Below, piece by piece: positions 27,348 to 46,754 of a DNA stretch of 64,000 nucleotides. The position numbers and the translations under genes were made by a program. Each line of letters opens with the position of its first letter. Position 1 is the first letter of the stretch. The notes beneath the pieces are model-generated. The model made no database searches. It was not told the origin of the DNA and saw only the letters and a program-made list of their open reading frames with translations. This DNA is from Sabellastarte sp. h YS-2021 (lineage: Eukaryota > Annelida > Polychaeta > Sabellida > Sabellidae), in NCBI GenBank assembly GCA_964017235.1, contig OZ024934.1, forward strand, positions 83,108,706 to 83,172,705. The letters run 5' to 3'.

Positions 27348-28325
27348 CTATAGGGAGGGTGGAATGATAGAGGCGAAAGTGGAGGGGACGATGGAAGGGG
27401 CTATTGATGCCTGTTGCAGGTACTGCCAGACAGCTGCACTTTTCCAGAGCCCGTGTGCCATGATGTCCTGAAGTTGAATATTTGAATCAAAGGCCAAAGT
27501 TGCTCCTGATCTCCTAAAGGAGTGGAACCCGTGTCCTTGCAAAGGGATGTTTAAATAATTTAGGACTGTTTTTAAAGCATCTCTAATGGTGGTGTCAATA
27601 ACTGGGTGGAACGGTGGAAATTTATGAACGAATAGTGGAGCATGTTTAGGGAGAGGTCTAGTAAGCATTAGTTCTTTCAAGGCTTGAACAGGACAAAGGT
27701 CAGGGTTTTCTAATCTAGGGATCTGGACAAAATGATGGGCTGAGGTATCTTGCAAGGTCTTGGTCCACTTAAGGAGGATATGAGCTCCAGGGTCTAAAAA
27801 GAGGATGTCTTGTCTAAGTATGTGTTTGATGGGGCTGAATAGAGCTTTGGAATGTGGAGCTATATTAGACATCCTAAGGAATGCAAAGAAGGCCAACAAA
27901 AAGGCCGCTCTAAATAATGGGGGGTCACTCAAAAGGTCACAGGCTTTTGAAATGGCGCTGAGTATGGGGAGTGAGAATATCCCTCTGGCAGTGGGATTGA
28001 AGCCTGAATTTCTTGCAATACTTTTGAGATAAGAAGTAACTAACTGATGAGAAAGGGGTTTTTGATCCCAGTCATATCGTTTGGCTAAGGCTTTGAGTGA
28101 TGATACATAGTTTAACATCACCCTGTGGGATATGTTATTAATATGAAGGTATTCTAAGAAACTCAAGGTTGAATGAACTGTAAATTGTAATGGAAGGTCC
28201 ATGACAATGACAAATGATAGATACGTCTTGAGATGGGTGGTATGTGCAGATCTGGTGGCAGGTCTATAGGCCATGCTAATTCTATTCCAAGCTGCCTGTG
28301 CTAATGCTGATGAAGGAGCCTCCAT
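27348..28325 (-). CDS. ORF2: tyrosine recombinase of the retrotransposon
   Basis: 325 residues, ATG at 28325-28323. The catalytic signature of tyrosine recombinases is complete: Arg151 in FAFLRMSNIAP, a beta-hairpin Lys at 186 or 189 (LLKWTKT), His268-x-x-Arg271 in HGFHSFRRSG, His291 in IMAHGLWK and nucleophile Tyr302 in VWQYLQ. It would integrate the circular DNA copy of the element by strand exchange through a 3'-phosphotyrosine link. The N-terminal half (about 1-120) is the usual helical DNA-binding domain. The C-terminus (SIAPSIVPSTFASIIPPSL) is short and hydrophobic. No break is visible. The frame on the other strand at 27805-28032 is a shadow. Confidence 0.92.
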   Translation of the reverse strand: MEAPSSALAQAAWNRISMAYRPATRSAHTTHLKTYLSFVIVMDLPLQFTVHSTLSFLEYLHINNISHRVMLNYVSSLKALAKRYDWDQKPLSHQLVTSYLKSIARNSGFNPTARGIFSLPILSAISKACDLLSDPPLFRAAFLLAFFAFLRMSNIAPHSKALFSPIKHILRQDILFLDPGAHILLKWTKTLQDTSAHHFVQIPRLENPDLCPVQALKELMLTRPLPKHAPLFVHKFPPFHPVIDTTIRDALKTVLNYLNIPLQGHGFHSFRRSGATLAFDSNIQLQDIMAHGLWKSAAVWQYLQQASIAPSIVPSTFASIIPPSL

Positions 28326-28334
28326 ATCTGTAAA

Positions 28335-31300
28335 TTATACATGAAGACTGAGGTCAAAATATGCATGATCCACGTTATCCCAGTTATAATTATCTAACAA
28401 ATCCTGTAAAATTTCGTTATTCACAGGTTTTGGTGAATAGATTCTTGACAAGGTGTCAGCTATACTATTCTTAACACCAGGTATGTGATTAATCTCTATT
28501 TCAATATCATTGTGAGCTGTAAGCAGCCACAAATTCCTAATACAAAGGGCCAAGAATGGGTCCTTGGTCTTGCCAGACCTGATCACCTGGACCACACTGT
28601 AATTATCGCAAAAGATGTGTATTCGCATATGTCGCCATTGACTACCCCATAATCTCAAGGCAATTACTACATTCAGCATCTCTAGATGCACTATTGTAAG
28701 TTCAAAGCCTGGGATTTGCCTAACAGGGGTGGCAAACACCCTACGTCTCCAGACCCCCCCCCCCAAGCCTGTCAATGAGGCATCCAGAAAAAGAGTCTGA
28801 CTTTCATCGACTTCCGGCTTCCTAAAATAAGTAATTCCATTGAAGGTTGGGAGGAATTCTAGGAACCAAGCGATATCTCTCTGAAATTCTTCATTTAATT
28901 GAATTCTGGCTCTGCCTGAATTCTGTCTGAATAAAGCTAATATTCGATTGATAAAAACTCTTGCTGAACGAACACATTTTTGAATATAGAGAAGTTTCCC
29001 CATTAGGGATTGATATGCTCTTTTTGTCAAATATTTTTGGTCCTTGGCCTTAGCACATTCTGCCATAATTTCACTTAGTTTGGCCTGAGGGATGGACAGA
29101 GTACTATTATTGACATCTATATCAATACCCAAATATGTAACTGTTTTACTGGGGGCCGTAAGCTTCGCAAGATTCAATGGTAGACCGAGTTCGCTCAGGA
29201 GAGTGCACAAGTTTTGGAAAACATTGTCAGCCTTAGATCGAGGGAGTACGGCGACATAGTCATCGATATAGCAGTGTAACTTGGTTTGATCCCTCATAAT
29301 GTAAGCTACTGCATCGGATATTAATTGATACGAAGCCGTGCCATGGATCCAGCCGAACGCCACCGACTTATCAAGAAAATATTGGTTATTGACTTTAAGA
29401 CCAAACTTAAGGGTATCAGCTGGGTCTACAGGTAAATTCCTAAATGCCCTGGCCACATCCACCTTGAAAAGCACAGGGTCGTTTACTGTGTCAATTATAT
29501 CTTGAACAACATTGTCAATGGATGGAAGTTTAAGTGCAAATAGGTTACCATCAAAGCGATCTTTTGACACATGGTCATTTAGAGATTGGCCCCTGGGGTA
29601 GGACAGGTCCAGAATAACCCTCCTGTTGTCTCCCTCTTTGGGTCGGGACATCAAGGGGGAACAATGATATTCAGGGTGGTCCACACTATTCTGGGGGCCT
29701 AACATGGCCCCTAATTCAATCTCTTTATGTAAATATTTTTGAATGTCAGTTGGATACTGTAATGCTGAGTAATGGTTACATACATTAGTGTTATGCAACT
29801 GAGAACGATCCTGGATGGACAAGGGAAAACCGAACTTAATATACTGGATTAATCTATCATCAGGGTAATCCTGTAAGTATTTTTCCCACATTTTTATGTT
29901 TAGACCCGAGACTATGGGGATCCTAGCCTCCTGATAATTTGGTTTGGCAGTGGACAAGATGATGTTAGCTACTTGTAAGCATTTGTCGATCAAAGTTATG
30001 TCCACTGGAGAGCGATCAGGACCAATGAATCTGAAGGTTGTTGGTTCTAAAGCGAGATATCCCACAGTCTTGTCAGGGAGATTAAAGTCGCGCAAAATAT
30101 CTATGTTGGGGGTGGGGTACAGTCTACTAACTAGTCCACTACCCTCGGGGGTGTCCTTCATGACCTCATCCTTACTACCTGTGAGCAGGTTGACTTGGTG
30201 ATCACAATACCCCGCACCACCTAGTTGGTTTTCCTCCCCCAACATGACTTGAGATGAAGTTTTGTCCCTTGTAAGTTCATCAATAATGTCAACCATATAC
30301 TGAGTGTAGGAGCAACCATGGTGATCCCAATATTGTTTATCTTTGTAAAAATCTCTATGTGCAGTCTTGGCTGCCACTATTTCTTGAGGCTTGTAATACC
30401 TAACTCTAGTGGATTGCATCAAAGACAGATGAAGATTACATATGATTCGAAAGGGGCCTAAAGTCCCCATGAAAGGGACCAGGGAAACCAACTGCTCCCT
30501 GTGGTTGACTGCCCATATATAAAAACCCTGAGAAAATTCAATTATGTCTCGAGTTATATACGCAATTTGACCCCAAAGGTCACCATGACTGCTCCAATGG
30601 TCAGTAAAAGCAATGTTCACCATAACCTGGTTCACACTGAGGGACTCCGTCCCTTCACAGATATAGGCTACCCCTGGATCCCCAGCAGTCACCAAAGACC
30701 TCAAGCTAAGTTCATTATCATAAATAGCAAAAGTAAACAAGTTCGCCTCGCGCCATTGACTGCTAGGGAACCAGGGGGGGCACATTAAATCACAATTTGG
30801 TAATTTTACATTGTTTTCATTGATTACATTATTAGACAAAGTCACTGAACAACATGTCTCTGCTCCATCACTTACACTAGATTTCCAAAGTTCATAGTCC
30901 TGATCCTGGAATTCTGTTACTTTACCATTACTGTTTTTAGTACCACTAAAGTTATTTACTTTTAACTGTTCTGTATTTGCAGTGTGTCCAGGTGAAGTGT
31001 TAGGTTTCAGTTCCTGAGATCTGCTACCATTCTTGGCTGTGCACTTGGATTCCGGATGAGACATAGAACGTCCTTGCTTAAAACAGAATGTACAAATGTG
31101 CCTGTAGACTCCATGGTGGCTGTCATTCACACAGCTACCTTCATTAAAAAATTTACAAACTCTGCTCTTGGCTGAGGTGCTGACATTTTGGCTGTTGAGA
31201 ACTGCAATTTGTGAAGAACTTACGCGGTTAAGAGCCCACTGTGTCGTATCATCCCAGGCTAATCTCCCCTCCTCCACCTCAGTCATGGAAACAGCCCAGG

Positions 31301-32249
31301 CGGATCGCACGGCTGGCCACGGCAGAGCCACGGCATCGCGCAGAGCAAGAGTTACCTGAGTAAGGACTTGTCGTAACAGGGTGTCATCCTGAATCTGCAA
31401 AACATTACTCAGTTGACCTGCCGCCCACTGCTGGAGGCTCATGTCATCATAGACGGGCTTACGTGTGTTAGCTGCTGCCACAAATCCCTCATTAGGCCAC
31501 CTTCCCTCGGGTCGGGCGTTGGGTGTTTCTGTGTTATTGTACCTCCCAGATTTACGCCTGGCAGTAAGGGGCTTACCTGGGATCACTTCCTGCTGAGCCC
31601 GCGCTTCATAGTCTGCCAGCAAGTTGGCCACCATACTGGATACCTCTGGGATGGATCTAAGTCTGTCAATACTGGGTGTAGTAGCCTCCCTGGAGTAGCC
31701 CTGTCTCTGTTCTGCAGCTCTACCGCCACTAACCGACGCTGGGACATACCCTTCTGTGACTGTCTGAGTCCCCGGATACACCACCTCCTCCCTAGCTGGC
31801 CACTTATATGAGTGAAGTAAGTTGGCCCGAGGTGTCATTTCAGGTAACATCTTCTTCACAGGGGACGTATGTTTGGGTCTGGGCAACCTGAAGGTAACAT
31901 TGTCTGTGGATTTGGCGACTTGAGACGGAATGGGGGTAGAACTAGCTGAGCTATTACCTTCTATTCTGTCCATCCGTTCAACGATGCGACGGTTAGATTC
32001 CTCCAGACGCTTCAGTGTACTCAGGATTACCTCAGAACCCGCGTTCAAAGACTGTAAGTCTAACAGTTCCTCACCTCCAGACGCGGTATGACTAACATTA
32101 TGAAGGTAAGATCCGTCAACATCCCCGCTCGTGGTGTCTGAGTTCGAATTCTTCTTGCTACTTGCCCTCTTCTTGGTACTAGCTTTACTAGAAACTGGTT
32201 TCTTCTTTTTATTAGTACTCATTGGTGATTTTTTCTTTGTAGAAGGCAT
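28335..32249 (-). CDS. ORF1: gag - reverse transcriptase - RNase H polyprotein
   Basis: The open frame extends to an ATG at 32354, but the first 35 codons lie partly in repeat A1. The Lys/Ser-rich start at 32249 (MPSTKKKSPMS) is more likely, giving about 1304 residues. Numbering from the longer frame: basic gag-like region, a predicted coiled stretch near 110-130, and a Cys/His cluster at about 400-440 (CKFFNEGSC, HICTFCF). The reverse transcriptase has motif A KVDVARAFRNLPV near 965 and motif C YIDDYV near 1028. RNase H runs from LFLDASLTGLGGG through LEMLNVVIALRLW and FCDNYSVV to ADTLSRI near 1300. It copies element RNA in the cytoplasm or nucleus. The stop is 9 bases before the recombinase ATG, so downstream translation probably needs re-initiation or a separate message. 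Confidence 0.9.
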   Translation of the reverse strand: MPSTKKKSPMSTNKKKKPVSSKASTKKRASSKKNSNSDTTSGDVDGSYLHNVSHTASGGEELLDLQSLNAGSEVILSTLKRLEESNRRIVERMDRIEGNSSASSTPIPSQVAKSTDNVTFRLPRPKHTSPVKKMLPEMTPRANLLHSYKWPAREEVVYPGTQTVTEGYVPASVSGGRAAEQRQGYSREATTPSIDRLRSIPEVSSMVANLLADYEARAQQEVIPGKPLTARRKSGRYNNTETPNARPEGRWPNEGFVAAANTRKPVYDDMSLQQWAAGQLSNVLQIQDDTLLRQVLTQVTLALRDAVALPWPAVRSAWAVSMTEVEEGRLAWDDTTQWALNRVSSSQIAVLNSQNVSTSAKSRVCKFFNEGSCVNDSHHGVYRHICTFCFKQGRSMSHPESKCTAKNGSRSQELKPNTSPGHTANTEQLKVNNFSGTKNSNGKVTEFQDQDYELWKSSVSDGAETCCSVTLSNNVINENNVKLPNCDLMCPPWFPSSQWREANLFTFAIYDNELSLRSLVTAGDPGVAYICEGTESLSVNQVMVNIAFTDHWSSHGDLWGQIAYITRDIIEFSQGFYIWAVNHREQLVSLVPFMGTLGPFRIICNLHLSLMQSTRVRYYKPQEIVAAKTAHRDFYKDKQYWDHHGCSYTQYMVDIIDELTRDKTSSQVMLGEENQLGGAGYCDHQVNLLTGSKDEVMKDTPEGSGLVSRLYPTPNIDILRDFNLPDKTVGYLALEPTTFRFIGPDRSPVDITLIDKCLQVANIILSTAKPNYQEARIPIVSGLNIKMWEKYLQDYPDDRLIQYIKFGFPLSIQDRSQLHNTNVCNHYSALQYPTDIQKYLHKEIELGAMLGPQNSVDHPEYHCSPLMSRPKEGDNRRVILDLSYPRGQSLNDHVSKDRFDGNLFALKLPSIDNVVQDIIDTVNDPVLFKVDVARAFRNLPVDPADTLKFGLKVNNQYFLDKSVAFGWIHGTASYQLISDAVAYIMRDQTKLHCYIDDYVAVLPRSKADNVFQNLCTLLSELGLPLNLAKLTAPSKTVTYLGIDIDVNNSTLSIPQAKLSEIMAECAKAKDQKYLTKRAYQSLMGKLLYIQKCVRSARVFINRILALFRQNSGRARIQLNEEFQRDIAWFLEFLPTFNGITYFRKPEVDESQTLFLDASLTGLGGGVWRRRVFATPVRQIPGFELTIVHLEMLNVVIALRLWGSQWRHMRIHIFCDNYSVVQVIRSGKTKDPFLALCIRNLWLLTAHNDIEIEINHIPGVKNSIADTLSRIYSPKPVNNEILQDLLDNYNWDNVDHAYFDLSLHV

Positions 32250-32294
32250 TTCTGTAAAATAGTTAAGTGTAAAATTTGTAAATAATAAAAAAAA

Positions 32295-32489
32295 TAAAAT
32301 AACCTTGTTTGTCCTTTGACTACTTGATTCAATATGCAAGACCCCTATCGCCAACAGAAGTTAAATGAAGCATGACCTAATTTGTGATTGGATGTTACAT
32401 TTAACAAGAACCCTTTTTTATTATATAATGTCTAATTAAGGTGGGACAGAAACTGAGGAAGCAGGCCCCTATACAGGCCGTGCTTGACA
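32295..32489 (-). repeat. split direct repeat A1
   Basis: The 5' terminal repeat of the retrotransposon. It is the same 195 bases as A2 at 26967-27161 as far as I can read. Confidence 0.9.
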
Positions 32490-36011: not shown

Positions 36012-36540
36012 TGCAGGTGTTCCACTGGAGCCAACAGGCTACCAGCCTGACAGGGAGAGTCGGTGAAAACATGTTTGATATTTCTACTACCGTTGCCGAC
36101 CCTTGTATTCGACCCTAATTTCAGCCACCTAGAAACAGGCCTGTCGGTTAACTTAACGGCCTGTCGGTTACACTTTCCGGCTTGTCGGTTAATCAAACAG
36201 GCCTGTCTGTAACAAGTGTCCGACTTGTCCCAAATATGGACTTCCACACTGTACGTGATGACTCACCAACCATGCGAGAAGTGTTACAGTACAGTTGGTA
36301 ACTTTAGCTGGCCTGTCTGTAAGTGTTCCCGACAGGCCTGTAAAGTTTACAGTCCGGTCAGTAACTTTAACAGACTGGGTTCTAGAGATGGAAAAATTTG
36401 TAACCGACAGGTCTTAAACTGAAACAGACAAGCCATAAACAATAACTGACAGGCCTGTAACACTAACAGACATGCTGGGAACTGTAACAGACAGGCCGGC
36501 AATATTTTTGCATCTTACGGCCTGTTGGTTTCAAAATCTG
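36012..36540. repeat. subterminal repeat array, left, element 1
   Basis: More than ten copies of words related to GGCCTGTCGGTTA or GACAGGCCTGTAA in both orientations. A similar array is at about 39780-40060. The frame at 36008-36247 is a chance translation of it. Confidence 0.75.
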
Positions 36541-36544
36541 TGGG

Positions 36545-36553
36545 TATAAAAAG
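36545..36553 (+). promoter_or_regulatory. TATA box of the Myb-like gene, element 1
   Basis: TATAAAAAG about 210 bases before the first ATG of the Myb-like relic at 36758. Confidence 0.55.
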
Positions 36554-36757
36554 GCGATTCGGTAGACAATCTACGTATATTTGGGCTTTGACTTGTCGAG
36601 AGACAACTGGTGTGCAACTTTGATTTTAGGTTTTTTATTTTTTGGAAATTAGCTAGTTTTGAGCTAGCCTGGACTGGTTGGGAGTGAAATCTGTTCTGTG
36701 AGGTTTCACTTTTATTTTAAGTTTTTGTTTTTTAAAACAAGCTGTACAATTGATTGA

Positions 36758-38210
36758 TTGATCAGCATGCCAAGGGGCAGAAGGAGAAAGATTGAAGTAC
36801 CAGCTGACACTCAACCACAGTTTGAGTTAGGAGATAAAGCTGCAGATATAGAAAGAAGGAGGAGGGAAAGAGAGGAGAGGGATGAGAGAGAGAGGATTGA
36901 ACAGGAGGAGAGGGGCAGAGAGAGGATAGAGAGAGAGAGAGGGAAGAGAGCCCAGAAAGAGCTGACATGGATACTGATGTAGAATCAACTCAATCCAGAC
37001 AGGAAAAGGGCCAGATGAAGTCAGTGATTCAGACGAAGAAGCCATCGTGGAGTTCGTTAAACAGCATGAGGAACTGTATGACAAGACCAACGACAGTTTC
37101 AAAGTCAAGCAGAAGAAAGAAAGACTTTGGGATCAACTAGCAGCTGCCAGAAACTTACCTGTCAAGACTGTGAAGAAGTGGTTCGATACTCAAGGTACCA
37201 GATATGGCAAGCTCACTCAAACAAAGTCAGGGCAAGGAGCTAAGAAGAGCATAGAATGACAGACCTGACTGAAGGACAGTTTCAGTTTTCTGCGAGGTCA
37301 CATCAGAAGATAGGGAGTTTCCAAGTCTTTTGCATTCAAGTCACCCCAGAGGCCCCCTGCAGCTGCAGCTTCAGTTCCAGATACATCCAAGGACACAGAA
37401 TCTGAGATGGAAATCAGCATTGCATCAGATGTTACTCATCAGCCTTCGAACACCAGTCCCAAGCGACGACAGCCTCCAATCATGACTACCACCACATTTG
37501 CAGATCCAGTCTTAGATCAATTCCAGCAGATGAGGTCGATGATTTCCACATTTCTGGGTGCACGTCAGGACCCCACTCCAAGTCCTAGACAGTCGTTCTG
37601 CAACTATCTCCACTCTGAGATTAAAAACCTGGAAGAAAGGGACTTTTTAACCTTCAGGAATGAGACAGTGAAGCTTCTCAGTGAAATACAGTACAAGGCC
37701 AAAGAACGCAAGAGACAGGTCACCAAAAGTCAAGAGGTCATCACATATCAACTTCCAGAAGCATCACAGGCCACACCAGGACATGAATACATACTCACCA
37801 AATCAGAAACTCAACCAGTCTCCATTCCAGTTGAGCAGCCTACACAGACAGCCACAGGAGAACCTGTTACAGTGATTGCCAAAGTACAGCCACCACCAAG
37901 ACCTTCATCAGCGTCAGCACAGCCAACTTCATACGTAGTTGTGGATGACCAACAGCCTGGGATTTCCAGACAGATGCTTTTCAATCCACCTTTCAGTCTG
38001 GATTATCCAGTCTCTTTGCAGCGATTGCCAGTATGCTTACGTATCAGCAGATGGATACACCACAGCCATTTTCACCCTCTCAACTTCAACCAGCACTGTC
38101 ACCAGTGCCATCTTCCACTCATCATGAACAGTCAAGACCTCCCAGCCAGTCCAGCCAGCAGAGTCAGAGTCAGCTCAAATCAGCGGATTAGCCTGCACAA
38201 GTCACACTAA
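36758..38210 (+). pseudogene. Myb/SANT-like (MADF-like) protein gene of Harbinger element 1, broken
   Basis: This is the second protein typical of Harbinger elements; in other Harbingers it binds DNA and helps bring the transposase to the nucleus and to the ends. Frame pieces: 36758-36982 (basic/acidic, Arg/Glu-rich coil), 37047-37259 (domain EFVKQHEELYDK…KKWFDTQGTRYGKL) and 37407-38210 (Pro/Gln-rich C-terminal half with FQQMRSMISTFL and KERKRQ). The second and third pieces are in one frame, the first in another. Stops lie at about 37258 and 37290. The order of segments matches the intact 407-residue homologue at 44727-45950, so this is one decayed gene. Confidence 0.75.
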
Positions 38211-38318
38211 AATCCCTTAAGAAAAAATAATCCCCTAAGAACTCAAAGTAAAACCAACCCCACCCCCAAACAAAACCCAATTTTGAATAAACACTCCCCA
38301 CCCCCCAAAAAACAAAAT

Positions 38319-38445
38319 CCAGACTCAAACCAACATCCCCCAAAATCAAGATGCATATGCAAACCCACGTCCCCCAAAAATCACGATGCAGACTCAAACC
38401 CACGTCCCCCAAAATCAAGATACAGACTCAAACCCACATTCCTCC
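38319..38445 (+). repeat. C-rich tandem repeat in element 1
   Basis: About four imperfect copies, 30-36 bases each, of a unit containing CAAACCCACGTCCCCCAAAA. It lies downstream of the Myb-like relic and explains the open frames at 38188-38596. Confidence 0.7.
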
Positions 38446-38877
38446 CAAAACCCAACTTGAAATAAAATGCCACACTCACAGACAAACAAACATGAGCCCT
38501 AACAAAGTATACAAACATATGAGTGTCAATGGACTGACAAACTGAATAAAAAAAAATTAAACTGGGACTGCAAACCTGTATAATTTGGTCTTGCAATTTT
38601 GTTTTTAATTCTTACCATAAAATATTTTCAGGTATTTATTTTGAAACTTTTTTTCCCTTTATTTTGTAATTTTTTTCTGAGAATTAAGCCAGGTCATGAT
38701 GGGGTGGGATGTCAACTTTGTACATTGAGGACCTGGGTTCAGTGCTGAAATTTATTTTTTGTGAACTGAGTTTGGGATGGATTTGTGTTTGTGATGGGGA
38801 ATGTTTTTGGTGAAACTGAATTTGAATTAAATTGTTGGAAAGTTGGGGTTATTTTGGGGGAGGTGACACTTTGCTAA

Positions 38878-38883
38878 ATAAAA
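38878..38883 (+). terminator. AATAAA polyadenylation signal
   Basis: A plus-strand AATAAA between the two convergent genes of element 1. It could serve the Myb-like relic; other AATAAA copies lie at about 38285 and 38462. Confidence 0.3.
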
Positions 38884-38902
38884 GCTCTTGGATTATTTTG
38901 GT

Positions 38903-38918
38903 AGTCCTGAAAAGGACT
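38903..38918 (-). promoter_or_regulatory. histone-type 3' stem-loop, element 1 transposase
   Basis: On the minus strand AGTCCTTTTCAGGACT folds into a six-pair stem with a TTTC loop and begins 33 bases after the transposase stop. It is followed by ACCA and then TCCAAGAGC, which resembles the purine-rich downstream element paired by U7 snRNA in invertebrate histone genes. This matches the replication-dependent histone mRNA 3'-end signal in shape, loop, flank and distance. The functional role is inferred. Confidence 0.7.
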
Positions 38919-38951
38919 GATAGATGACAGCATGTTCTCCCCTCAGTTTTC

Positions 38952-39679
38952 TTAAACTCTCTCCTCCTGCCCAGCCAGCACCCCCAAATGATTGAAGTAG
39001 TCTTTCAGTAGGTCTCGTTGATGTTTGGCCTCCCTCGATGGGTTTCTCAAGTTCTCATGATGTCCCTGTTCCCCCTGGTCTGCCTGTGGTGATTGTATGT
39101 CATCAGCTGGTGTGGGTGGTCTGTCTGCTTCCCCCTGATTGCTTCTCGACATGTTATGTAGTACCACACATGTTAACACAATGTCTCACAATTTTTCGCC
39201 TCTGCTCCATGGTGGTCAACAGCACCCTGAATCGCTTGACAAGTACATGAAATGAATTCTTGATCACCCTTCTCCCCCTGGATATCCTGTAGTTGGCTTC
39301 CGTCTATCTTCTCTGATCAGTTGGCATCTACTTGTAAGGCTTGTTGGCATCTACTGTGGATAAGTGTCTCAAAGTAACTGCCAGTTTCAACCCGACTTCC
39401 AGTGGCTTCCTGAAGTCGGTGATTGACTTCCTGAGGTGGGGGGCTGATTCTTTCTTCAATCAAATAAAAAATGCTGGCTCCATCCTGGTGAAACTCTGTG
39501 GCTTCCTTCTCCTTCTGGGTGGTGGGGGTGATGTTGATGCTGGCTGGGGAGGTGCTGGGTTCTGCTTGTGCTGGTCTTCTATGTCTTGAAAATATCATGT
39601 ACAATAAAAAATTTAACTCAATAAAAACCAAAAAGACCCTCAAGTGATCTATCAGTTGCTCTTGATGTGTTCCTGTCAT
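38952..39679 (-). pseudogene. PIF/Harbinger transposase of element 1, core deleted
   Basis: The N-terminal part (ATG at 39679, HLRVFLVFIELNFLLYMIF) matches the start of the intact-length transposase at 42321. After about 100 codons the sequence jumps to the C-terminal region: ANYRISRGRRVIKNSF near 39260, then NPSREAKHQRDLLKDYF near 39000 and a stop at 38954-38952. Both catalytic Asp blocks are missing. The third catalytic Glu is replaced by Lys (VIKNSF versus VVENAF). Frameshifts occur near 39180 and 39310. It cannot act as a transposase, so the element would depend on a relative. Confidence 0.75.
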
Positions 39680-39721
39680 CTTTGAAGTGTGAAATGAATG
39701 GCACATCACAGGGGAGGGGGG

Positions 39722-39729
39722 TTTATATA
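39722..39729 (-). promoter_or_regulatory. TATA box of transposase, element 1
   Basis: TATATAAA on the minus strand, about 43 bases before the ATG at 39679. That leaves a very short leader. Confidence 0.55.
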
Positions 39730-40097
39730 GTGTGATATGGATCCCGATTCTGGATACCGACCCACAAAAACAATCAGTCCTGTCGGGAAGGGTCGGGAAC
39801 ATGCTCCCGGCTTGCCTGTTTGTCTTTACGGCTTGTCTGTTTGTGATCCAGCTTGTCTGTTAGGGGTTTAGGGCTTGTCATAGTACTTCTACGACTGGCC
39901 GTGTAAAAAACATCTCCGACCCTACATCTTGTCGGGAAGGTCATTACGGCCTGTCTGTAACTATACTGCCCTGTTGGGGATTTCATAACCGACCCACCAT
40001 TTTCCCGCACTTTTTCTCACAACTCTATGACAGTTGCAACCGACCCTAGGGTCGTAGGGTCGGTTACAGGGTTGGCTCCAGTGGAACACCTGCATAA

Positions 40098-41538: not shown

Positions 41539-41879
41539 ATCCTTTTGTTTGTAACAAAATCAGTAAAACTTATCCTTACTAAGGCTACAGGGGACTAATG
41601 ATATTACCTGGTTAAAAATAAAGAGTATAATCCTCTTTTGTTTTAGATCTTTAACACCCCTGTTATTTTAAGGATATGTTACCCATTTGGCATCCACATT
41701 TGAACCACAATGGAGATAAATTCTTGTGTGACAGAACTATGTCAAAATCCATTTACTAGTGTCAGAACTTGAAATTAAAGACACAGTGTGCTCTTTCGCA
41801 GTGGTTCTCTTTCGTCCACAATACCCTGCCGTATTTGTCGTGTACACTTCAACCTGGGATGATCTAATGCCCCTGTTCC

Positions 41880-42235
41880 ACCAAAAGATTAAGCCCCGAT
41901 CCTGTCGGCGACCCTTAATCGTGGACAGTCGGTGGGAAAATAACAAAAATGGGCGGGAATACTGGGTCGGTACTGAAGTCTGGGATTAAGAACAGATCGT
42001 TCCCAGGACGCCTCAGGCGGCCGCAGACAGTCCCCGACTGGTCTGGGACTAAGAACCGACTAAGCCAGTTTTCAGGTCGGTTTCAACCACGATCCAGTCA
42101 TACACATACCGACTGGGTCCCAGGACGCCTCAGGCCTCCTGGGACTAAGCCCCGACTAACCCACGATTAACTACCGGCGTCCTCAGGCGTCCTCAGGCCT
42201 CCTCAGTCTTCCCCAGACCATAATCCCCGATTATT
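41880..42235. repeat. subterminal repeat array, left, element 2
   Basis: Repeated words GGGACTAAG, GCCTCAGGC and CCCAGGACGCCT. The right array is at 46150-46740 with the same vocabulary. The motif set is unlike that of element 1. It probably binds the transposase or Myb-like protein of this element. Confidence 0.75.
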
Positions 42236-42263
42236 GTTTTCCCAAGTTGCTGGATTTTCTGGG

Positions 42264-42278
42264 TATATATATATAAAA
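42264..42278 (+). promoter_or_regulatory. TATA box of transposase, element 2
   Basis: TATATATATATAAAA about 45 bases before the ATG at 42321. Confidence 0.65.
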
Positions 42279-42320
42279 TTTGCGATCTAATCATCATTGC
42301 TTTTCTAGGAACACAGCAGG

Positions 42321-43622
42321 ATGCCACCTTTTAATGGAAGACAGATTCAACAACAACTTAGGGCTTTTTTGGTTTTTATTCAGTTACAAATAATCATGTA
42401 TTTCCATTTCTTACATCGACCACAGCAACCACCACCAGCACCACCAGCACCCATACAGAGACCTAGAAGAAGGCACAAGATGTGGGTCAGGCCATGGCTA
42501 CTGCAGAGAGAGGAGAGGGGGGCCTACCACAACATTATGGCTGATCTTTATGCCACAGATATTCCAGGATTCACCAACTACATGAGGATGACCCCAGAAT
42601 TCTTTGAAATGATTAAGACCAGACTGGAACCACACCTAGCCAGGCAGGCCACCAACTACAGAGCACCAATCAGTGTTGGGGAGAAGTTAGCCCTCACCAT
42701 CAGATATCTGGCCACTGGAGAGTCCTACACATCATTGTCCTGTCAGTTCAGGGTTGGAAGATCCACCATCTCCAAGTTTATACCAGAGGTCTGCAGGGCC
42801 ATCCAGGATGAGTTCACCAGGGAGTACCTGAAGTGTCCTACTACCCCAGATCAGTGGAAAGAACTGGAGAGGGAATTCAGGATCAGGTGGAATGTTCCAC
42901 ATGCCCTGGGAGCTCTGGATGGGAAGCATGTGGCCCTGAAGAAGCCCAAGAACACTGGAGCCCTCTACCACAACTACAAGGGGTTCTTTTCCATTGTGAT
43001 GTTGGCCCTGGTAGATGGACAGTACAAGTTTAGATAGGTGGATGTGGGTACTGAAGGATCCTGCTCGGATGGCCAGATATTTAATGCCTCTCAGCTGAAG
43101 AGGAGGATTGAGGATGGCAGGATAGGCTTCCCTGACCCAGCTCCTATAACCCAGGGTGGGAGAGATGTCCCCTACTTCATCCTGGCAGATGATGCTTTTG
43201 CCCTGAAGACCTGGCTCATGAAACCCTATGGCAGAAGGATGTTAACAAGAGAGGAAAGGATTGCCAATTATAGAATTTCAAGGGGCAGAAGAGTGGTGGA
43301 GAATGCTTTTGGCATCCTTGTGTCAAGATTCAGGGTGATGAGGACAACCATTGAACTACCCCCAGCAACAGTCAGGGAAGTGGTCTTGACCTGTGTTGTT
43401 CTACACAACATACTGAGAAGCCAGTATCAAGGTCAACCTGGTGGTCAGCAGCCTGGTGAGGACGATGATGATGATGCACCTGATGATTGTGGATTAATTG
43501 GGGGTGCTGCTGGTGGTGGCCAAGACAGAAACCCTGCCAGAGAAGCCAAGAGACAGAGGGATTACCTGAAGGACTACTTCAACAATGAGGGAGCAGTGGC
43601 CTGGCAAGATGGCAGAATATAA
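42321..43622 (+). pseudogene. PIF/Harbinger DDE transposase with one in-frame TAG
   Basis: 433 codons plus the stop in a single frame, interrupted only by TAG at 43035-43037 (codon 239), where the family usually has Trp. Domains: N-terminal hydrophobic/Pro-rich segment (1-55), helix-turn-helix-like region about 115-155 (GEKLALTIRYLATGESY…STISKFIPEV), then the DDE nuclease: Asp200 in GALDGKHV, Asp290 in FILADDAF and Glu327 in RRVVENAFG. A C-terminal tail (AREAKRQRDYLKDYF) ends at TAA 43620-43622. It cuts the element at its ends and inserts it at TWA sites. With the TAG the product would stop after the first Asp unless suppressed; a TGG-to-TAG change is the simplest explanation. No other break is visible, so the loss is recent. 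Intronless. Confidence 0.85.
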
Positions 43623-43639
43623 GTCCTGCTGCAGTGAAC

Positions 43640-43684
43640 AGTCCTTTTCAGGACTAACTATAACAGTCCTTTTCAGGACTACCA
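43640..43684 (+). promoter_or_regulatory. tandem histone-type 3' stem-loops after the transposase
   Basis: AGTCCTTTTCAGGACT occurs twice (43640-43655 and 43665-43680), starting 17 and 42 bases after the stop. Each is a perfect six-pair stem with a TTTC loop. The second is followed directly by ACCA and, 9 bases on, TCCAAAAAC. No AATAAA is visible on this strand from here to about 44400. The pattern fits histone-type 3' end formation. Confidence 0.75.
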
Positions 43685-43721
43685 ATTATTCCAAAAACAA
43701 TTAATCAGCTATGTTTGCCAC

Positions 43722-43905
43722 AGACGGACAAACCCCATGCCAAACATAACTTGTACAGACGAACAAACAGACAAACCCCATGCCAAACATAACTTGTTCA
43801 GACGAACAAACAGACAAACCCCATGCCAAACATAACTTGTTCAGACGAACAAACAGACAAACCCCATGCCAAACATAACTTGTAGAGACGGACAAACAGA
43901 CAAAC
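43722..43905. repeat. 43-bp tandem repeat, about four copies
   Basis: Unit with AACCCCATGCCAAACATAAC repeated at 43731, 43774, 43817 and 43860. It explains the chance minus-strand frame 43701-43907. It lies between the two convergent genes of element 2. Confidence 0.88.
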
Positions 43906-44678
43906 ACAACTTACTCACCCAACAAACAGACAAACCCACTGTTAAACAAAAGCCAAACACAAAGTCACACATAATATGCTAAATTGAATTATTTTTTCAT
44001 ATATTTTGAAATCCACATCATACTTTCACCAATTATTTTTGTTCATGGCTTGGAAATTTATTTGTAGCAGAGAGGTTTTCATGGAAATCTTCAATTTTAA
44101 ATCTTCACTTCTAATCACAAAAATGTGGAAAATGTAACCATGGAACTAGTTTTGCTTTCAATAATGGGGGATTGTGTTTGCAAAATAGTTTGTCAGTTCG
44201 TTGGCATGGGTTCTATTTAATTTTGGGTTTTTGTGTTTCTTGGTTGGTGGTTACTGGGGTTGGGTTTATTATTGGTAGTTGGATGTTGGGTTTCTTACTG
44301 GGTTTGTTATTTTGGGGCTATGTTTGGTATTGGGTTTGTCTGTTTGTGGGTTGGCAAGTATGTAATAATGCCCTTTAACTCTAGGGAAGGTGTAAGTGTT
44401 GGACTTTTGAATTAAACATTTTAAACTATCTTATGGATTTTATTCTAAAAATGGGCTGATTAATGGCCATATTGGGAGTTATTTTTATTTTTTTTATGTG
44501 GCCTTTTTTGTTATGTGTGGTACCATGGGTTATTTGTTTCACGTTTGGGGTGGTGTAGGTGTTGGACCTGAACTTTTTTTTTCTTGTGATAAGTATTTGT
44601 ACTGAACTTTTTTGCTTTGGGGGGGGGGGGGGAATTGGAATAACATGTAGCTGAATAATTGTTTTTGGAAGATTTGGT

Positions 44679-44694
44679 GGCCCTGAAAAGGGCC
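44679..44694 (-). promoter_or_regulatory. histone-type 3' stem-loop after the Myb-like gene
   Basis: On the minus strand GGCCCTTTTCAGGGCC begins 32 bases after the stop at 44727. It is a perfect six-pair stem with a TTTC loop, followed by ACCA and then TCCAAAAAC. Two stem pairs differ from the transposase hairpin, with both partners changed (A-T to G-C and T-A to C-G). It is an almost exact match to the animal histone stem-loop consensus. Confidence 0.78.
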
Positions 44695-44726
44695 TGGCAG
44701 GTCAAAGACCCGCCCTGACTGGATGG

Positions 44727-45950
44727 CTACTGAGGAGGCTGCTGCTGCTGTTGAGGCGGTGCTGAAGTGGTGATAGTAAAGAGCTGCTGCTGCGGTTGTT
44801 GCTGCTGCTGCTGCTGCTGAGGCTGCTCGACAATCTGTGTTGATGTCAGATCTGGTAGCTGGCTTAAGATTCCACTCAGATTGTGTCTGCTCCCTTCGTC
44901 CTGTACAGTTAGGACAGATGTCGGGTTGCTGAAGCCAATGGGGCTTGGTGTATAGTACACAAAACTGCTGCTAGCTGCTGCTTGAGTGGAACTAGACGCC
45001 TGTGGAGTGGTTGTTGGCAGTAGGCCGACCCTCTGGGACTCCGTGGTAACAGTGGCTGATCTTCTGGGCAATGGCTGACGTCTGCGGTTACTCTTAATAG
45101 TTTCGATGTCTCTAAATATCTTGCCCTTTAATTCTTCAAATTCTTCTTGAGTCATCTTTTCGGCCTCTGATGCCACATAGTCAAAGAAGGGCTGCCTGTC
45201 TGACTTCTGATGCAGAAAACCTGAGATAAGTGTCCTCATCTGCTCAAAGTGTTCGAGAATCTTGTAGTCTGTAGTTGAAACGGGCATTGATGTAATGATG
45301 GACTGACTCCTCTCCCTCAGGACACTGGATTCGAGGTGTTCTGTATCAGTAGTTGAGCCACGTGATTCATCCTGCCTGCTGGTATTTGGACTGGCCTCAA
45401 AACCTGAACTTCTATTGGCCCCCTTTCTTCTGATGTGGGTTTTAAGAAAACCCATCTGTTGGTACACCCAGGACTGTCTCTTGGTCATCTCCCTCGGGGC
45501 TTGGCCAGATTGGAGCTTAGACAGCTTCCCATAACGGGTTCGCTGGGACTCGAACCAACGTCTCACATCAAAGGGCTGGAGCTTGAGTTCTGCAGATATT
45601 TCTGCCCAGAGAGCCTCTCTACTGGTCCTGTCGTGGAAACGTGAATGTTCCTTGTCATACAGTTCAGGGTGCAGCTTTACAAATTCCACAATGGAAACTT
45701 CCTGGCTGTCTGTAAAAGTGGCACACACCCTGGCTCTCTTAGCTGAAGAATGGCACTCCGGATCTTCCTCACACCTCTCTTCTTCTTCTGCCACAGCTTC
45801 CCCAATAGCTGGATCTTCCTGAATCTCCTCCTCCTCTCTCCTCTCACTTCCTTCTTCTGTAATAACCTCACTCCTCTCCTCTACTTGACTTTCCTTCTCC
45901 CTCTCATCCATCTTTTTCCTTCCTCTCTTCCCTCCTTTCTCTTTCCTCAT
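44727..45950 (-). CDS. Myb/SANT-like (MADF-like) DNA-binding protein of Harbinger element 2
   Basis: 407 residues, ATG at 45950-45948, TAG at 44729-44727. Order: basic N-terminus (1-20, KEKGGKRGRKK), a long Glu-rich acidic stretch (15-65), the trihelix-like domain about 85-150 (SIVEFVKLHPELYDK, ALWAEISAEL, VRRWFESQRTRYGKL with Trp115 and Trp132), a conserved WVYQQMGFLKTHIRRK block, a second helical segment about 235-285 (ILEHFEQMRTLISGFL…FFDYV), then a Ser/Thr-rich and finally Gln-rich tail. The Gln run is encoded by CAG-type repeats (44738-44822). In known Harbingers this partner protein carries the transposase to the nucleus and binds the ends. It is intact, intronless and convergent with the transposase. 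Confidence 0.88.
   Translation of the reverse strand: MRKEKGGKRGRKKMDEREKESQVEERSEVITEEGSERREEEEIQEDPAIGEAVAEEEERCEEDPECHSSAKRARVCATFTDSQEVSIVEFVKLHPELYDKEHSRFHDRTSREALWAEISAELKLQPFDVRRWFESQRTRYGKLSKLQSGQAPREMTKRQSWVYQQMGFLKTHIRRKGANRSSGFEASPNTSRQDESRGSTTDTEHLESSVLRERSQSIITSMPVSTTDYKILEHFEQMRTLISGFLHQKSDRQPFFDYVASEAEKMTQEEFEELKGKIFRDIETIKSNRRRQPLPRRSATVTTESQRVGLLPTTTPQASSSTQAAASSSFVYYTPSPIGFSNPTSVLTVQDEGSRHNLSGILSQLPDLTSTQIVEQPQQQQQQQQPQQQLFTITTSAPPQQQQQPPQ
44738..44822 (-). repeat. CAG/CTG repeat encoding poly-Gln
   Basis: Imperfect CTG/TTG triplets on the plus strand read as runs of Gln at the C-terminus of the Myb-like protein. Confidence 0.85.
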
Positions 45951-46123
45951 AATCCAGTCGACAAAATAATAAAAAAATAGTAAAATCTGTCTCCTAACTG
46001 TGAAATTTGCCCTAAGCTCAAGTATATAAAATATAAAATAAAAACTGAAAACCCCTACAAATCAGTGACACACGTCTCTCAGTAGCCAAACAGTCAGTAA
46101 CAACGAGAATGTGTGCGCGGTCG

Positions 46124-46131
46124 CTTATATA
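46124..46131 (-). promoter_or_regulatory. TATA box of the Myb-like gene, element 2
   Basis: TATATAAG on the minus strand, about 175 bases before the ATG at 45950. Confidence 0.6.
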
Positions 46132-46149
46132 GTCCCAGACCCCCTCATT

Positions 46150-46740
46150 GCCTCATTTTAATTTCCGACGCGCGGAAAACAGTCGGTTCTTAATCGGTTG
46201 TTAGTCCCAGGCCGCCTGGGGCATCCTCAGGCCGCCGCAGACTAAAAATGTGTGGTCCCAGGCGTCCTGGGGAGGCCGGTTTGGATCGGTTAGGGTCGGT
46301 TACCCTTAGTCGGTTCTTAGTCCCAGACCTTGATTTTTGGGTCCCAGGACACCGCAGACGGTCTGAGGCTTCCGGGGACTAATGGAACCGACCCACTTTC
46401 AGACGCATGAAATTCATACGCATCATATTTGAGTCTGGGATTAACAACCAGCCTCCTGGGACTAAGCTATGGAGGTCTGGGACTAAGGGTCGCAGGCGGC
46501 CTGGGACAACACACGACTGTGTAAATTTGGGTCTGAGGAGGCCTGAGGATGCCTGGGACTGGACATTTTGTTGAAGGCGGGAAATATGAATCGGTTGTAG
46601 TCGTGTGAAATATCAAACATGTTTGATTTTTCACACGGTCCCAACCGACCACAACCGACCCTTACAGGAAGCCTGGGACTAAGCAAATATTTCAAACCGA
46701 CCCCCCAAAACCCTTAATCGGGAGCCTTAGTCGTGTGGTG
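46150..46740. repeat. subterminal repeat array, right, element 2
   Basis: GGGACTAAG, CCCAGGCCGCCT and CGGTTAGGGTCGGTTA-type words in both orientations. It also contains the perfect palindrome AAACATGTTT (46614-46623). Frames at 46467-46695 are chance. Confidence 0.7.
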
Positions 46741-46754
46741 GAACACCCACATAA

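Follow-up and report, generated by a model that had tools for sequence, protein, structure and literature searches.

Background

In animals, S phase is the only time at which SLBP and mRNAs of the histone type are present, and the downstream element of histone genes, which varies between animals, is recognised through base pairing with U7 small nuclear RNA (snRNA). To our knowledge, 3' ends of the replication-dependent histone kind are regarded as a feature that hardly any genes other than histone genes possess. The present analysis concerns ends of this kind on a DNA transposon, a PIF/Harbinger element here called E1, which lies in a stretch of 64,000 nt from the annelid Sabellastarte sp. h YS-2021 (GenBank assembly GCA_964017235.1, contig OZ024934.1, positions 83,108,706 to 83,172,705 of the forward strand). 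This whole stretch is referred to as the window. Both genes of E1, one for the transposase and one for a Myb-like protein, carry a replication-dependent-histone 3'-processing signal that is matched to that of the host.

The tails of these genes share with the metazoan replication-dependent histone 3' end (Rfam family RF00032, Histone3) a stem of 6 bp, a loop of 4 nt, the invariant second G-C and top U-A pairs, an ACC flank, a block at 9-10 nt, closeness to the stop codon, an intronless gene and a near letter-level match to the histone genes of the same genome. They differ in that the genes with the signal, for which processing is predicted, encode the transposase and the Myb-like protein of a DNA transposon. 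Compared with the histone tails of the host, they also differ in their stems (GGCCCT or AGTCCT) and in the two tandem hairpins that often stand behind the E1 transposase. In other respects E1, and a second element in the window, E2, have the make-up of two-gene PIF/Harbinger transposons, with TAA target duplications of the 3-bp TWA type, terminal inverted repeats (TIRs), a DDE_Tnp_4 transposase and a second gene for a Myb/SANT-like protein. HARBI1 and NAIF1 are domesticated relatives. Cut-and-paste elements, as known from other cases, gain copies when they move during replication or when they are repaired from the sister.

Histone genes with a palindrome and a purine-rich element are described for bivalves in PMC6210712, and S-phase confinement of SLBP and histone-type mRNAs is reported for a cnidarian in PMC5011920. 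Stem-loops of long and short interspersed elements (LINE/SINE; PMC6510757) likewise close the transcript of a transposable element at its 3' end and are linked to retrotransposition. Unlike these, the Harbinger stem-loop and block are the host histone-processing signal, and they stand on a cut-and-paste DNA element. No description of histone-type 3' ends on a transposon was found in an open-access library by title or start of the abstract, a search for which subscription papers and preprints were mostly outside the scope.

The 3' ends of the E1 genes

Each of the three hairpins at the ends of the two E1 genes is made up of six Watson-Crick pairs and a TTTC loop (Table 1). In both genes ACCA stands directly behind the last hairpin, and TCCAAAAAC lies 9 nt past its stem; directly 3' of the first transposase hairpin stands AACT, not ACCA. 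Two hairpins in tandem are frequent behind the E1 transposase, and a single one is present in copy L041. An earlier note, made from the letters of the window, had claimed these hairpins at 17, 42 and 32 nt from the stops, with six pairs and a TTTC loop each, and had placed ACCA and a block about 10 bases on at the last hairpin of each gene; the coordinates bear this out throughout. As a survey of the window it was correct on the E1 tails but missed the second Harbinger with its hairpin at 38918-38903 (-), and also the TAG at 43035-43037.

The window was scanned against all 4227 Rfam families at E values up to 5. RF00032, whose curated cut-off is 34 bits, supplies the top three of all matches, the next match of any family having an E value of 0.93. 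The end of the E1 Myb-like gene (44654-44699 (-), 35.2 bits, E 1.7e-6) gives the only match over the cut-off, followed by the ends of the E1 transposase (43660-43705 (+), 32.4 bits, E 1.9e-5 over the window) and of the E2 transposase (38878-38923 (-), 28.6 bits, E 5e-4 over the window). The covariance model had been proposed beforehand as a check on the E1 hairpins, and these do score with it, at 35.2 and 32.4 bits.

The word RGYYCTTTTCAGRRCYACCA is present three times in the window and absent from 100 dinucleotide shuffles. The window contains seven simple hairpins of the same size, of which three are unrelated. A shuffled window contains 1.3 of them, or 0.025 where ACCA is required as well. 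Since plain hairpins of such size are not rare, the flanks and the downstream block carry much of the weight.

Table 1. Elements E1 and E2, their genes and the parts of their 3' tails, in window coordinates
Feature	Position (strand)	Details
PIF/Harbinger element E1, 4.9 kb	41868..46751 (.)	From sequence; DDE_Tnp_4 and MADF/Myb-SANT domains
E1 transposase (DDE_Tnp_4), single exon	42321..43622 (+)	In-frame TAG 43035-43037; TAA stop 43620-43622
First transposase hairpin AGTCCT-TTTC-AGGACT	43640..43655 (+)	AGTCCTTTTCAGGACT; 17 nt past TAA; 25-nt tandem duplicate
Second transposase hairpin with ACCA	43665..43684 (+)	AGTCCTTTTCAGGACT at 43665-43680; 42 nt past TAA; RF00032 32.4 bits, cut-off 34
Downstream block of transposase gene, TTCCAAAAACAATTAATCAGCTA	43689..43711 (+)	Histone-downstream-element-like; 17/18 identical to host H3, 16/18 to H1 and H4
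Downstream block of Myb-like gene, TTCCAAAAACAATTATTCAGCTA	44648..44670 (-)	17/18 identical to host H4
Myb-like gene hairpin GGCCCT-TTTC-AGGGCC with ACCA	44675..44694 (-)	GGCCCTTTTCAGGGCC at 44694-44679; 32 nt past TAG; RF00032 35.2 bits
E1 Myb/SANT-like (MADF) gene, 407 aa, single exon	44727..45950 (-)	PF10545 E 1.4e-11; convergent to transposase
PIF/Harbinger element E2, 4.1 kb, orientation opposite to E1	36012..40094 (.)	Target duplication TAA 36009-36011 and 40095-40097; 24-nt perfect TIRs
E2 Myb/SANT-like gene (disrupted)	36769..38210 (+)	MADF 37053-37256; PF10545 E 3.2e-8
E2 downstream block TCCAAGAGCTTTTATTTAG, host H2A/H2B type	38874..38892 (-)	16/18 identical to host H2B
E2 transposase hairpin AGTCCT-TTTC-AGGACT with ACCA	38899..38918 (-)	33 nt past stop; RF00032 28.6 bits, below cut-off
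E2 transposase remains (disrupted)	38952..39802 (-)	C-terminal 77 aa 47.6% identical to E1

Agreement with the histone genes of the host

That both E1 genes end in a histone-type signal, as had been proposed from the window, is supported most strongly by the downstream block, which agrees almost to the letter with that of the host's histone genes. In the one host genome searched (1.79 Gb), 75 RF00032 places were scored, all of them over the cut-off, and 30 were fetched; RF00032 gave a match in one of 14 control genomes, below the cut-off. Tails were read for H1 (L015), H3 and H2B (both L010), H4 (L114, L116 and L117) and H2A (L115). The protein ends encoded just before the tails served to assign H1, H4 and H2A, and tblastn to assign H3 and H2B. 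The layout common to all five histone types is a stem GGCTCT-TTTC-AGAGCC, then ACC(T/C), then a block at 10 nt. The block has the overall form T(C/T)CAA(A/G)AAC(AA/TT)TTA and can be divided into two types, TYCAAAAACAATTA in H1, H3 and H4 and TTCAAGAACTTTTA in H2A and H2B. Host H1 forms a tandem array (L015, G000 C4:31445721-31509289) of 32 cassettes in 1932-bp steps save for one gap. This array is separate from the core histones, which lie on C2:27.65-27.74 Mb.

The same two block types are found in the transposon tails. The nearest host block is that of H3 for the E1 transposase (17/18), that of H4 for the E1 Myb-like gene (17/18) and that of H2B for the E2 transposase (16/18). Among 2000 shuffled flanks compared with the host block, one reaches 15/18 and none 16. 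Because the element that pairs with U7 varies between animals, a match to the block of the same host outweighs a generic hairpin as evidence.

Distribution among Harbinger copies

Genome-wide, exact matches to the 20-mer AGTCCTTTTCAGGACTACCA number 2347, and those to its reversed control 0. The first 30 of these places on contig C1 (L064-L093) were taken as a sample, which is biased for hairpins, having been picked for the exact transposase hairpin, and unbiased for Myb ends and downstream blocks. All 30 sit 20-68 nt behind Harbinger transposase sequence that is 35-98% identical to the C-terminal half of the E1 protein. TCCAAAAAC is exact in 25 of them and within one mismatch in 29, the exception being L064, the most diverged. 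A pattern of loop, ACC and block finds 5227 cassettes genome-wide and none in the reversed control, only 39 of the 5227 having the host histone stem. As this pattern leaves the 5' arm free, some of the cassettes will have imperfect stems.

Copies were also picked by protein. Close copies of the E1 transposase scored in the same genome numbered 150, and the 30 E1-type loci that were fetched (one of which, L034, is the window's own copy) have a perfect hairpin in every case, a perfect hairpin with ACCA in 29 and an exact TCCAAAAAC in 29. The E2 family was sampled at 16 copies, roughly every tenth of 150 scored. A recognisable hairpin is kept in 15 of these and lost in one, and CCAAGAA is present in all 16. 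Eight of the 15 hairpins show no deviation in stem, TTTC loop or ACC flank, two have a TCTC loop, one has a G-T pair, three have one mispair and one has an altered loop and flank. Across the window genes and the E2-family sample the hairpin lies 17-47 nt past the stop. Behind Myb-like genes, a hairpin with at least five of the six pairs was found at 53 of 61 ends (two of the 53 with five pairs); seven of the 61 (L005-L009, L013 and L014) came from the RF00032 search, and without them the count is 46 of 54. Related Harbingers thus carry the hairpin, as the earlier note would predict, with exceptions (the E2 Myb gene of the window, L004 and some of the Myb ends) that are weighed in the Discussion.

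Substitution patterns in the tails

Covariation was assessed in an alignment of 14 tails, five from host histones and nine from Harbinger genes. L004 and L012, in which the hairpin-bearing gene is not assigned, were left out, and a 16-row version that included both had the same outcome. Standard pairing holds in all 84 pair cells (14 tails by six pairs). Both partners are substituted in pairs 1, 3 and 4 (G-C/A-U, C-G/U-A and C-G/U-A, respectively). The Harbinger stems GGCCCT and AGTCCT depart from the host stem GGCTCT by paired substitutions. No variation is seen in the second pair, G-C, or in the C-G and U-A pairs at the top, the loops are TTTC, TTTA or TCTC, and the unpaired ACC flank is conserved among the 14 tails. 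For the 14 rows, none of 500 shuffles and none of the slid controls attained the covariation score; for an alignment of four rows, 28 of 500 shuffles did.

Identity along the Myb tails was calculated from 51 tails with a regular-expression hairpin, collapsed to 19. Mean pairwise identity is 0.98 in the hairpin, by which the tails were selected, and 0.82-0.87 in the block, which was unselected. It is 0.71-0.76 at the end of the block, 0.40-0.67 beyond it, and up to 0.94 in the coding end before the hairpin. Between E1 and E2, the longest exact word in common is the 22-nt CAGTCCTTTTCAGGACTACCAA; in 200 shuffles the longest word averaged 12.1 and did not exceed 18.

Candidate processing factors

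On C6 the host encodes the RNA-binding domain of SLBP (PF15247), split into two pieces that score 56.8 and 35.9 bits (cut-off 27) and have 11 kb between them. Both are taken as exons, and a TAG lies inside the weaker one (35.9 bits). A search for the same domain in the 14 control genomes gave no match (0/14). Two candidates for U7 from Rfam family RF00066, L096 and L097, were set aside, no convincing complementarity to the block being visible by eye. One suggestive place, C1:178476274-178476295 (-), a tentative candidate for U7, reads TAATTGTTCTTGCAATTTGTCT and could pair with CAAGAACAATTA.

Discussion

The Harbinger tails bear a histone-type signal, by which the mRNAs are likely to be cleaved through the SLBP/U7 route and the encoded proteins confined to replicating cells, a joint reading that is drawn from sequence. 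Each tail would present a stem-loop of 6 bp and 4 nt to SLBP, a cleavage flank of ACC(A) type and, 9-10 nt on, a block expected to pair with U7 snRNA. SLBP would bind the stem-loop, the U7 small nuclear ribonucleoprotein would pair with the block, and cleavage would fall 4-5 nt past the stem, leaving no poly(A) tail. The two intronless mRNAs would then be stable and translated mainly in S phase. Because SLBP and histone-type mRNAs are S-phase-confined in animals, production of the transposase and of the Myb-like protein would fall mainly into replication, and the transposition proteins would be limited to replicating cells. This timing would suit a cut-and-paste element, which could gain copies by moving out of replicated DNA into sites that are yet to be replicated, or through repair from the sister chromatid.

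The stem-loop could instead be used for SLBP binding only, in export, translation and S-phase-linked stability, with most transcripts polyadenylated downstream and the coupling to S phase partial. AATAAA past the E1 Myb-like stop, at +237 and beyond, is in keeping with this, as is the first E1 transposase hairpin, which has neither ACCA nor a correctly spaced block. An SLBP-only role would not need the U7-type block, however, which is kept at 9-10 nt and matches that of the host, and there is no AATAAA in the 1078 nt after the E1 transposase stop, though chance could suffice for that; on balance such a role is unlikely. It is quite improbable that the tails are a passive relic, that is, a histone 3' end captured once by an ancestral Harbinger and now without function. 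They look histone-derived, degenerate copies keep them, and a third family, of which one copy was seen, has no tail on the transposase side, all of which a relic would allow. Yet E2, at 47.6% identity to E1 at the transposase C-terminus, retains hairpin and block, paired substitutions are maintained, the flank of the Myb tails past the block decays to 0.40-0.67 while the block stands at 0.82-0.87, and the tail is present on both genes in two block types that mirror the two of the host.

Since the genes are convergent with a hairpin at the end of each, the hairpins might also act at the DNA level or in termination, insulating the two genes from each other or serving as protein-binding palindromes in transposition. 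Such a role is very improbable: the signal is strand-oriented behind stop codons and away from the element ends, the downstream block matches host histone genes, and the unpaired ACC flank, which is conserved, would be needless for a DNA palindrome. Nor do chance hairpins next to A-rich sequence account for the tails, although plain hairpins arise at about 1.3 per shuffled window, one of the 14 control genomes matches RF00032 below the cut-off, and bacterial and viral collections of very large size contain isolated RF00032-like matches by chance (L002, 29.8 bits; L003, 25.1 bits). Three gene-end hairpins in one window, thousands genome-wide with a reversed control of 0, and 30 of 30 sampled places behind a transposase refute chance, whose probability is negligible.

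Several observations weigh against histone-type cleavage and replication-bound expression of the Harbinger genes. All of the evidence comes from one genome, and the transposases of both window copies, E1 and E2, are broken. The hairpin is missing at 8 of the 61 Myb ends, a hairpin search behind the E2 Myb gene of the window found no recognisable 3' hairpin, and at L004, from the third family (transposase 44-52% identical to E1), the transposase ends without a hairpin and with AATAAA near the stop. At L064, 35% identical to E1, the hairpin is kept and no block is recognisable. Not every Harbinger copy or family, then, keeps the signal. The AATAAA at +237 nt and further beyond the E1 Myb-like stop makes poly(A) ends possible; the host H3 tail has AATAAA too. 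U7 was not identified in the genome, the best RF00066 match having 31 bits (cut-off 34, E 0.06) and matches to this family being present in 6 of the 14 control genomes as well; a pattern of complementarity to the block before an Sm-like site gave 46 places, compared with 37 in the reversed control. Two of five covariation measures are unremarkable, double-change pairs being as high in 129 of 500 shuffles and further pair types in 500 of 500, so the support from paired substitutions is real but comes from few independent events.

Plausibly, the tail was captured, or borrowed, from a histone gene of the host, the alternative being a long co-evolution with host U7 RNA. The two block types in the transposon tails suggest a capture of host ends, once or several times. 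A broader proposal is evenly balanced, namely that this group of Harbingers would be licensed for S phase through the histone mRNA pathway on both genes. With the signal in thousands of copies, more than a hundred times the host histone 3' ends by pattern counts, element silencing, the capacity of SLBP and U7 and the sequence of U7 may co-evolve against one another.

A DNA transposon with the complete, host-matched signal on both genes would be the clearest non-histone use of the histone 3' pathway known to the authors, and would have a simple means of coupling its enzyme to DNA replication. For cut-and-paste elements, which need replication or repair for copy gain, this link is a question of long standing. 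The system is a tractable one, with short tails, many copies, some intact frames and host histone genes as a matched control.

Further features of the elements and the window

The TAA target duplication of E1 lies at 41865-41867 and 46752-46754, and its imperfect TIRs read TG....TGTTCCACCA. The E1 transposase matches PF13359 (DDE_Tnp_4) at E 6.9e-21. An in-frame TAG breaks it in the window copy, while many others have an open frame of about 430-446 aa, and a frame of at least 425 aa is present in 18 of 30 fetched loci. Its C-terminal half has no sequence relative among solved structures at E up to 0.01, and no relatives of the transposase were found in bacterial and viral contig collections. 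Of the pattern scans of these collections, one gave nothing and the others gave L001-L003. L001 was rejected, RF00032 finding no match in it with an E value of 0.01 or less; L002 and L003 were taken as chance, the match in L003 lying inside a reading frame.

Between the convergent E1 genes are tandem repeats of about 43 bp (43718-43920 and 44307-44353), with an inverted partner near 44320. A solitary copy of the E1 left terminal region stands at 445-537 of the window (81% identity over 93 nt). An exact subterminal word of 18 nt, GAAATATCAAACATGTTT, is common to E1 (46607-46624) and E2 (36084-36067) and is perhaps a binding site for the transposase or the Myb-like protein.

Among Harbinger loci elsewhere in the genome, L011, an E2-like Myb end (70% identity to the E2 Myb protein over 184 aa), has a hairpin. 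L005 has two hairpins behind the transposase, each of six pairs (one of them G-T), with flank and block decayed. In L004 (1-605), the gene convergent to the transposase ends in a hairpin and block. L012 and L004 share 86% identity over 991 columns, and from this and the 44-52% identity of the L004 transposase to E1, both are probably Harbinger elements.

The window holds a third Harbinger transposase fragment, E3 (34770-34028 (-)), which is degraded and, its 3' end being lost, uninformative on tails. At 27348-32354 (-) a long frame of reverse-transcriptase type is followed by one resembling a tyrosine recombinase; in Pfam the first matches RVT_3 only and the second has no match, and by reading of its frames the element is DIRS-like.

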